Source: a bacterium (GTDB lineage Bacteria > Patescibacteriota > Dojkabacteria > SC72). From it: a stretch of 34,171 nt of DNA. The DNA lies in contig JAIOSB010000018.1 of the NCBI GenBank assembly GCA_021107795.1, forward strand, positions 1 through 34,171, written 5' to 3'. The translations under genes and the position numbers were made by a program. This document shows, piece after piece, positions 15,276-33,262 of the stretch. Each line of letters begins with the position of its first letter. Position 1 is the first letter of the stretch. Under the pieces are notes generated by a model. It searched no databases, was not told the DNA's origin, and saw nothing but the letters and a program-made list of their open reading frames with translations.

Positions 15276-15324
15276 ATTTCCATCTATGTTATACAATATT
15301 GTATTAAGTTATTATTCTCTCTAT

Positions 15325-16251
15325 ATGAATTTATCTCCTAATTTTAAGAATATACTTCGTATATCGCTAATGGTTGTAGGTGGTTTAGCCTTAACCTTAA
15401 CTCTATGTATTGGAGTTATCTATTTATATCTCAATTCAACCTCGTGGTATTCTACTAATGTTGATTATATAGAAGGTGGTAGAGGAGGTGTCTATCTTGA
15501 CGAATCTCCTTTTCTACAGAGTGGACTTGTAGAAGAGTCATCTATGCCTAAAGTAGCCACTATTGGGAATGACCATGAACCTACTGTAGAGCGCAAGATA
15601 CAGAAAGGTGGTAGTGTAAATATGAAAGTTGAAGATTTAGACGAATCATATGATGAGGTCTATGATATTTTACAAAAGTATAGTGGAGAATTAACCAATA
15701 GCTATGAGAGTGGTGAAGGAAACGAAAAACACATCTCTATGACATTACAGATAGAGTCTAAATATTTTGAAGACATATATGCTGATGTGAAAGAAATAGA
15801 TGGGGAAGTAATATATGCCTCATATTCTACTGATGATGTTACAATGCAATATACAGATTTAGAATCAAGACTTAGAAACCTAGAAGCTGCAGAGACACAA
15901 TTGGTAACACTACTTGAAAGTGCAGAAGATGTAACTGAGACATTAGCAGTATATACAGAACTAACAAATATTCGATCTCAGATAGAGGTGATAGAAGGAC
16001 AGCTTAAATATATGGATAGCCGAGTAGATTACTCGTACCTTACCGTGACGCTTTCTCTAAGTGATACAGGCATGGCTGTTGTTGATGATGTATGGAAACC
16101 ATGGGGTGTAGCAAAGATTGCCTTCTCTGCCCTTATCTCTTTTGGTAAAGGTGTTGTTAATATGTTGATATGGGTAGTGGTATTTTCACCATTAGTTGGT
16201 ATTGTTGTAGGAAGTGTACTATTACTAAGAAAGAAAAAAGGGAAGAAATAG
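15325..16251 (+). CDS. DUF4349-like membrane-anchored protein
   Basis: N-term TM, YTDLESRLRNLEAAETQLVTLLESAEDVTETLAVYTELTNIRSQIEVIEGQLKYMDSRVDYSYLTVTL, C-term TM; start 15325 preferred over 15286. Confidence 0.75.
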   Translation: MNLSPNFKNILRISLMVVGGLALTLTLCIGVIYLYLNSTSWYSTNVDYIEGGRGGVYLDESPFLQSGLVEESSMPKVATIGNDHEPTVERKIQKGGSVNMKVEDLDESYDEVYDILQKYSGELTNSYESGEGNEKHISMTLQIESKYFEDIYADVKEIDGEVIYASYSTDDVTMQYTDLESRLRNLEAAETQLVTLLESAEDVTETLAVYTELTNIRSQIEVIEGQLKYMDSRVDYSYLTVTLSLSDTGMAVVDDVWKPWGVAKIAFSALISFGKGVVNMLIWVVVFSPLVGIVVGSVLLLRKKKGKK

Positions 16252-16260
16252 TGGTATAAT
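16252..16260 (+). promoter_or_regulatory. Extended -10 promoter of rnpB
   Basis: TGGTATAAT directly after upstream CDS stop, 5-7 nt before the P1 5' strand. Confidence 0.65.
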
Positions 16261-16264
16261 CTGA

Positions 16265-16562
16265 CGCGCAAGTATTCTGGATGGTTGCGCCTAGATGATA
16301 GGTGAGGAAAGTCCGGACTCCGCAAATGGAACCAACGAGAGTTGGGGGGGAGTGATCTCTCGGAGAAAAGGGCAACAGAAAGTTATACCGCCCAATAAGG
16401 CACTGCTCGCCGATTGGGTAAGGGTGAAATGGTAGTGTAAGAGACTACCGGGTAATGTAGTAATACATTATCGCGTGGTAACCCCTTCCTGGAGCAAGGT
16501 TAAACCGCATAGATAGATAACCATCGTTATACAGAATTCGGCTTATTGAATGCTTGCGCACT
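16265..16562 (+). ncRNA. rnpB: RNase P RNA (shortened, about 298 nt)
   Basis: GAGGAAAGTCCGGACTCC, AACAGAAAGTTATACCGCC, GGGTAAGGGTGAAA, GGAGCAAGG, ACAGAATTCGGCTTAT; 12-bp P1 helix 16266-16277/16548-16559. Confidence 0.95.
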
Positions 16563-24614: not shown

Positions 24615-24689
24615 GCCGCTATCGTCTAACGGTTAGGACACAGGATTCTCAATTCTGTAATCGGGGTTCAATTCCCCGTAGCGGTACCA
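24615..24689 (+). tRNA. tRNA-Glu (anticodon CTC), 3' CCA encoded
   Basis: Cloverleaf: GCCGCTA/TAGCGGT acceptor, CAGGA-TTCTCAA-TTCTG anticodon arm, CGGGG-TTCAATT-CCCCG T arm, A+CCA. Confidence 0.95.
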
Positions 24690-31547: not shown

Positions 31548-32060
31548 ATGAAATATTCTTTAGGATTCTTACTACAACAAGATATTTGTAAACAATTAGA
31601 AGAAATCTCTAAGGAGGCAGCTAGAATATTCGCAGGACAAGAAATCCCAGTAAGGTGGGTTAAGTTAGAGAACTATAGAATCTCTTTACATCAGTACCAG
31701 AAACTATCACCTCTACAAAAACCTCTCCTAAAGAAGAAACTTAAGAATATCGCTACTCCAGCATCTAGGATATCCTTGCATAGAATAAAACTGGGAGACG
31801 CTAAAAGGATGAGAGGTTTAATATATTTGAGTATTGATGAAGGGGGAGAATATCTAAGAAATTTGAAATCTGAATTAGTGAAGGAGTTGAAAATAAAAGA
31901 GACCTCTGTTTTTGTTCCTAATATTGTAATAGGTAGGGTGAGTAAAGATCTTACTAGACAGGAATATTCCAATATTCTTAAAGACTTTGAAAGTTTGCAG
32001 GCAAGTGTCAATAGAGTACAATTTTTAATTGATACTATGGAATTAATCGAAGCATCATGA
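31548..32060 (+). CDS. Degenerate 2H phosphoesterase / 2'-5' RNA ligase (LigT-ThpR)-like protein
   Basis: IPVRWVKLENYRISLHQYQKL resembles RWVxxENLHITL; VFVPNIVIGRVSKD resembles FxPHxTLGRV; ATG 31548 preferred over 31524. Confidence 0.5.
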   Translation: MKYSLGFLLQQDICKQLEEISKEAARIFAGQEIPVRWVKLENYRISLHQYQKLSPLQKPLLKKKLKNIATPASRISLHRIKLGDAKRMRGLIYLSIDEGGEYLRNLKSELVKELKIKETSVFVPNIVIGRVSKDLTRQEYSNILKDFESLQASVNRVQFLIDTMELIEAS

Positions 32061-33262
32061 AATTTAAGGAACACAACTTTATACCACTACTGTTTGCAGG
32101 GGACATCAACTCATATAGTATGGCGCGATCATTCTTCGAGGCATATCGGATTAAATCAATTGTTTACGGTAAATATCACACAGGACCCAATTGTAATAGT
32201 AAGATACTTGAGTATAGGAATAAGGAAAATATTGAAGAAGAGAAAACTTTCTTGGAAGTGGTAAATAATGTTGCGAAGAAAAACCCAGACAAAAAAATCT
32301 TAGTGATTGGATGTGCTGATAGCTATGTTGCACTTGCTAGTAGATTAAAAGACAAATTCGAGAAGAATGTCATAATCCCATATATCGATTACGATTTAAT
32401 GCAAGAACTTATTCTAAAAGACAAATTCTATCAATTGTGTGACAAGTATAATATTGATTACCCAAATACATTTGTGTACTCCAGAGATATGGGAGATAAC
32501 CTAGAACATGGTTTTGAATACCCAGTGATACTCAAGGCTGCAGATAGTGTTGTGTATTGGGAATATCCATTTGAGACACAAAGAAAGATTTACAAAATTA
32601 AGAGTGAGGAAAAACTAAGGAATGTAGTTAAGGAGATTTATGATGCTGGATATCATCAGAAATTAATTATTCAAGATATGATTCCTGGAGATGATACATA
32701 CATGTATGTCCTAACTGGATATTGTGATAGGAATAGTAAGGTTAAACTTATGTCTCTGGGTAATGTCTTAATGGAAGAGCATACTCCCCATGGTCTGGGG
32801 AACCACTCCGTCATTATAAATGATACAAACCCTCAGATTGTAGAAAATGTTACAAAGTTTTTAGAAGATATAGGGTATATTGGCTTTTTTAATCTAGATA
32901 TCAAATATGATAGTAGAGATAATAAGTACAAGTTTTTTGAAATAAATACTAGGCAGGGTAGAAGTAATTTCTATGTTACAGGTGCTGGATATAATCTTGT
33001 AGAGTATGTGGTAGAAGAATATGTTAATGGAAAGGAGTTGGGATATACTTTAGCTACAAAGAAGAAACTTTGGCTTGTAATACCATTAGTATTAGCTTTC
33101 ATATTTGTTAAATCAAAGAAGTACAGGAGAGAGATGTTGTCTTTGCTGCTTGCGGGTGATGTGGTTAATCCTGTATTCTTTTTTAAAGACATGGGGTTTG
33201 TAAAGTCTCTGAGGTTTTTTAAAACACATATAAGTCATTTTAGAAAGATGAGGTTAGAATAA
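32057..33262 (+). CDS. ATP-grasp carboxylate-amine ligase, likely D-aspartate ligase family
   Basis: FIPLLFAGDINSYSMARSFFEAYRIKSIVYGKY, FEYPVILKAADSVVYWEYPF, LIIQDMIPGDDTYMYVLTGY, GFFNLDIKYDSRDNKYKFFEINTRQGRSNFYVTGAGYN. Confidence 0.75.
   Translation: MKFKEHNFIPLLFAGDINSYSMARSFFEAYRIKSIVYGKYHTGPNCNSKILEYRNKENIEEEKTFLEVVNNVAKKNPDKKILVIGCADSYVALASRLKDKFEKNVIIPYIDYDLMQELILKDKFYQLCDKYNIDYPNTFVYSRDMGDNLEHGFEYPVILKAADSVVYWEYPFETQRKIYKIKSEEKLRNVVKEIYDAGYHQKLIIQDMIPGDDTYMYVLTGYCDRNSKVKLMSLGNVLMEEHTPHGLGNHSVIINDTNPQIVENVTKFLEDIGYIGFFNLDIKYDSRDNKYKFFEINTRQGRSNFYVTGAGYNLVEYVVEEYVNGKELGYTLATKKKLWLVIPLVLAFIFVKSKKYRREMLSLLLAGDVVNPVFFFKDMGFVKSLRFFKTHISHFRKMRLE

Follow-up and report, generated by a model that had tools for sequence, protein, structure and literature searches.

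It appears quite probable that the single class A RNase P RNA of the Dojkabacteria genome studied here has had its CCA arm cut to a minimal P15, that the enzyme would be CCA-independent and that the CCA encoded in tRNA genes would drift. A working, CCA-independent bacterial RNase P would be the best reading of the sequences, which are presented below together with the distribution of the short form in the class and the counts of tRNA genes ending in CCA.

Anatomy of the rnpB gene

The window, which is the whole stretch of DNA analysed (34,171 nucleotides), carries a class A RNase P RNA gene of about 298 nt at 16265-16562 on the + strand. The gene matched RF00010 with 169.8 bits over the full model length (model positions 1-367), exceeding the gathering score of 100. 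It is present in one copy in the source genome (667 kb, 98.65% complete) and has a fold z-score of -3.88. The features of the gene and of two sites outside it are as follows.

16252-16260 (+), extended -10-like box TGgTATAAT, read by eye 5-13 nt upstream of rnpB; putative promoter
16266-16277 (+), P1 5' strand GCGCAAGTATTC, pairing with 16548-16559 over 12 bp (sequence, covariance-model alignment and fold)
16280-16286 (+), P2 5' strand GATGGTT, pairing with AACCATC at 16519-16525 (sequence and covariance-model alignment)
16304-16316 (+), conserved core including the P4 5' strand, GAGGAAAGTCCGG (covariance-model alignment, high posterior)
16491-16497 (+), P5 3' side and J5/15, GGAGCAA (covariance-model alignment), which we take to contain the equivalent of E. 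coli A248
16498-16506 (+), mini-P15 hairpin GGT-TAA-ACC, in place of P15, L15 (GGU), P16 and P17 (sequence, covariance model and covariation in the class)
16509-16518 (+), J18/2 ATAGATAGAT, given elsewhere as AGATAGAT (16511-16518), directly 3' of the mini-P15 (sequence and covariance model)
16519-16525 (+), P2 3' strand AACCATC (sequence and covariance-model alignment)
16531-16545 (+), conserved core including the P4 3' strand, ACAGAATTCGGCTTA (covariance-model alignment, high posterior)
16548-16559 (+), P1 3' strand GAATGCTTGCGC (sequence, covariance-model alignment and fold)
24615-24689 (+), tRNA-Glu (CTC), ending in an encoded CCA

A small P3 and the helices of the S-domain, including P13/P14, were also aligned by RF00010. 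The P4 helix and the universally conserved core blocks are present, and the catalytic core is intact in the covariance-model alignment. The sequence-only reading had described P1 (12 bp), P2, a small P3 and the P4 strands as intact, which sequence and covariance-model alignment both bear out, and its description of an RNA of about 298 nt with J18/2 soon after the P5 3' strand was likewise confirmed by sequence and RF00010 alignment.

The TGgTATAAT box sits right where the preceding DUF4349 gene (15286-16251) ends; a -35 hexamer is not evident upstream of rnpB, and the box was not reported by the consensus scan. The 3' ends of rnpB and of a convergent fmt gene (methionyl-tRNA formyltransferase-like, PF00551/PF02911; 16562-17515) coincide, and no evident terminator separates the two genes. 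In many members of the family, for example G007, G009 and G013, rnpB is a neighbour of the ribosomal protein cluster and follows uL2 at a distance of about 14-15 kb, and the same arrangement was found in G036 of the same class. The uL2 of the window agrees at 59% with that of the Dojkabacteria genome S139_149 (L085), which is more than with any other named genome save L039, itself from the family, and more than with remoter genomes of the class (55-57%); this points to the class Dojkabacteria (WS6). Further along the window, a 401-aa protein (32057-33262), ATP-grasp-like by eye and adjoining an Asp/Glu racemase family gene, had no Pfam match at E<=0.001.

The protein partner is encoded elsewhere in the source genome, where rnpA (PF00825 match, C18:8755-8991) follows a 60-aa bL34-like ORF in the order bL34-like ORF, rnpA, yidD-like, yidC-like. 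The RnpA protein has an ordinary size of 117 aa and no added domains, and aligns over nearly its full length with RnpA of the B. subtilis type. A PolyA_pol-family protein of the CCA-adding type is also present.

The reduced P15-P18 segment

The order in the window RNA is GGAGCAA, then GGTTAAACC, GC, AT and J18/2. The P15 stem consists of GGT (16498-16500) and ACC (16504-16506) with the loop TAA; RF00010 pairs GGUU with AACC as P15, which with a normal loop becomes GGT-TAA-ACC. In this alignment 0 residues were placed at the 43 model positions of L15-P16-P17, and 0 at the 24 positions of P18. P16, P17 and P18 are variable helices of bacterial class A RNase P RNA, and the pairing of the L15 GGU with the tRNA 3' RCCA is usual, not universal, in this class of RNA; the L15-CCA contact counts among the standard determinants in bacterial RNase P. 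No such GGU was found in the window RNA, the loop being only TAA. The earlier statement that the entire P15-P18 region is missing was slightly too strong, because P15 survives as a 3-bp hairpin, but L15 with its GGU, P16, P17 and P18 are indeed gone, the minimal P15 being the only one of these helices that the covariance model recovered. Unconstrained MFE folding of the window RNA did not predict the 3-bp/3-nt hairpin, which counts against the favoured explanation.

Distribution and covariation in the class

RF00010 matches were obtained in 37 of 39 genomes of relatives and in 78 of 86 genomes of the whole class, and the P15 segment was read in all of the latter 78. The canonical L15 was absent in 76 of these, and all 27 readable genomes of the window's family (f1) had the short form, with GGTTAAACC identical in 12 of them. 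Comparison with related genomes, which had been proposed as a check on the short form, thus recovered the same form.

The class contains 57 distinct P15-segment inserts. Automatic P15 finders mis-anchored some rows, and the inserts were therefore read directly and re-checked. The first three P15 pairs were formed in 164 of 165 cells (55 inserts), a count with a mild circularity, as the 3' boundaries of a few inserts outside f1 were set where the pairing and GC fit; when the 3' strands were exchanged among sequences in a shuffle control, the mean was 80.7 pairs and the maximum 103. The pair types at position 1 were GC 31, CG 16, TA 5, AT 2 and GT 1, and the GC, CG, TA and AT types occur at each of the three positions, in hairpins such as GGC-TTA-GCC, CCGC-CAA-GCGG, GATAC-AACAA-GTATC and GGGC-AAAAAC-GCCC. 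These compensatory changes in independent genomes argue that the residual P15 is maintained by selection as a covarying mini-helix, and they exclude an assembly deletion. P18 is absent in every f1 RNA read and in many other families of the class, and present in some others, e.g. G025, G029 and G037.

Within the class the canonical TCCC-AAGTTATGGTA-GGGA with its GGTA loop is kept only in family f93 (G213 and G214), and the GGUA of G213 (L317) was aligned to L15 by the covariance model. G189 (f6) has a GGT in a small loop, and G176 (f87) has the intermediate loop AAAGTGTA where AAATTTGGTA would stand. A tree of the rnpB cores had long branches and poor resolution, giving neither the placement of f93 nor the number of losses.

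Several single genomes depart from these forms. In G179 (L347) the P15 hairpin has grown to 17 bp and carries a loop of 15 nt (CCCCGCCCTCAGGATATT...GAGGGCGGGG), but here too the canonical GGU is lacking. The RNase P RNA matches of G188 and G191 (f6), at 247 and 231 nt, are shorter than usual. G002, of the same genus as the window genome (1.2 Mb, 98% complete), had no RF00010 match despite its high completeness; its relatives are about half as large, and this genome may be a mixture or may be broken at rnpB. A short-P15 pattern run over the genome collection was rejected, its matches falling mostly on GCAAG inside the P18 of ordinary RNAs; the only true short forms among them were L039 and L085 (Dojkabacteria S139_149), and possibly L087.

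Encoded CCA and the GGU motif

ARAGORN, run on the loci of 39 tRNA matches, gave 38 distinct tRNA genes in the window genome, 28 ending in CCA and 10 without it, so that not all of them encode CCA, which had been raised as a point to check. The pattern GTTCRANYC-N12-CCA independently counted 28 CCA-ended genes. A pattern intended as the tRNA denominator was discarded for its far too many chance matches. The tRNA-Glu of the window, reported earlier to encode CCA, does so, and the genome as a whole combines high CCA encoding with no GGU. The accompanying argument, that the rule of no encoded CCA, no GGU is not obviously available as an explanation, holds for this genome but is weaker across the class, where CCA ends are encoded by 47 and 37 tRNA genes in the two GGU-keepers of f93 and by a median of 12 (range 0-33) in the other 76 genomes. 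G176 with its intermediate loop has 33, and the encoded-CCA pattern picked up no tRNA gene at all in G188 and G191. Because the link between GGU and CCA in the class rests on one family, it amounts to one evolutionary contrast.

In the phylum sample, with GGU calls curated by eye, no association was found between GGU and CCA (median 31 in 25 GGU-positive and 29 in 87 GGU-negative genomes, Mann-Whitney p=0.69), nor was any found by family (p=0.42). Some GGU-positive genomes in this sample have only 7-12 CCA tRNAs and many GGU-negative ones more than 40. The textbook coupling of GGU and CCA is therefore at best a local rule within the class.

Alternative explanations

That a local assembly or binning deletion took about 55-70 nt from an ordinary RNase P RNA has a negligible probability, being refuted by the short form in every readable genome of the same family and by the compensated changes in the hairpin; the similar distance (about 14-15 kb) between rnpB and uL2 in many same-family genomes also speaks against it. 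It is very improbable that the RNA has degenerated into a non-functional relic, with another enzyme, e.g. a protein-only RNase P, maturing the tRNAs. The loss of L15 does take away a contact which is reported to be essential in E. coli in vivo (Wegscheid and Hartmann 2006, cited in PMC4919922), but the intact core, the maintained covariation, the retention of rnpA and the conservation of the form across the class are all at odds with a relic. A shift of the CCA contact to a different loop, or to RnpA, is improbable as well, given an RnpA of ordinary length without added domains and the absence, in family f1, of a new conserved GGU anywhere from P15 to J18/2.

A simple coupling of the kind suggested for archaeal type M and eukaryotic RNAs, in which the class lost CCA templating and then the useless GGU, and the window genome regained CCA in many genes, deserves more weight but is on balance doubtful. 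The two GGU-keepers have the highest CCA counts of the class, far above its median, and the genome with the intermediate loop AAAGTGTA is also rich in CCA-ended tRNAs, as coupling would have it. The window genome itself, with CCA in 28 of 38 tRNA genes and no GGU, goes against it, as do the phylum-wide result and the occurrence of GGU-positive genomes with fewer than 12 CCA tRNAs beside many GGU-negative ones with more than 40. We tentatively propose, as having not quite an even chance, that the class lost its grip on the tRNA CCA almost throughout and that CCA templating then eroded to 0 to 33 genes per genome, some lineages, the one studied here among them, still being mostly CCA-encoding without GGU.

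Comparison with known RNase P RNAs

The window RNA shares its core, P1-P5, S-domain, J5/15 and J18/2 with the type A M1 RNA of E. coli, which however has a P15 with GGU, P16, P17 and P18, where the window RNA has only the mini-P15. Archaeal type M RNA lacks the P15 substrate-recognition loop, P16 and the P6 pseudoknot, and both type M and eukaryotic RNase P RNAs without L15 have been matched to the absence of encoded CCA (PMC4919922). The missing L15 loop and P16 are common to type M and the window RNA. Unlike type M, in which P8 is absent and several archaeal proteins take part, the window RNA belongs to bacterial class A, goes with RnpA and still has P8 and P13/P14, the S-domain hairpin CCAACGAGAGTTGG aligning where the bacterial model has P8/P9. 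Cyanobacterial RNase P RNAs without GGU cleave a CCA-lacking substrate better (PMC4264200), and the window RNA resembles these cyanobacterial and plastid RNAs in the absent GGU and lost CCA contact. Cyanobacteria retain P15-P17 with a variable loop, whereas the window P15 is a bare hairpin with no P16, P17 or P18.

A probable CCA-independent RNase P

The favoured explanation is a minimal P15 in a functional enzyme that would be indifferent to CCA. The CCA-recognition arm was probably reduced ahead of the diversification of most of the class. Recognition of pre-tRNAs would then probably rest on T-loop contacts of the S-domain, on P4 and J5/15, and on contact of RnpA with the leader, and CCA-bearing and CCA-lacking precursors would probably be cleaved alike. 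Indifference to CCA is supported by analogy with type M and eukaryotic RNAs, which lack the loop, and with cyanobacterial RNAs without GGU, which favour a CCA-lacking substrate. Encoded CCA would be free to drift because RNase P would no longer need it, and missing CCA ends would be supplied by the CCA-adding enzyme. Against this stands the retention of CCA by 74% of the tRNA genes in the window genome, which is not required under purely neutral drift.

The core surprise is not new, because Lui, Nielsen and Arkin (2021) reported the UGG/GGU motif to be missing in 23 of the 35 RNAs of their mostly CPR set, and described the Dojkabacteria genome SRX1775579_bin_0 (732,899 bp), whose RNase P RNA is without nearly the entire P15 (PMC8172020). 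The observation stands, but that paper foreshadowed most of it. Single genomes were treated there; what is new here is the class-wide distribution (76 of 78 Dojkabacteria), the proof from covariation that a remnant of P15 persists, the family with GGU and the counts of CCA-encoding tRNA genes.

For annotation, it should be kept in mind that covariance-model scores fall for RNAs reduced in this way. A class without the L15-CCA contact, containing genomes with high and low numbers of encoded CCA and a family that keeps GGU, offers natural RNAs for testing the purpose of the contact, and the same set of RNAs bears on the reasons for which CCA is encoded or left out.
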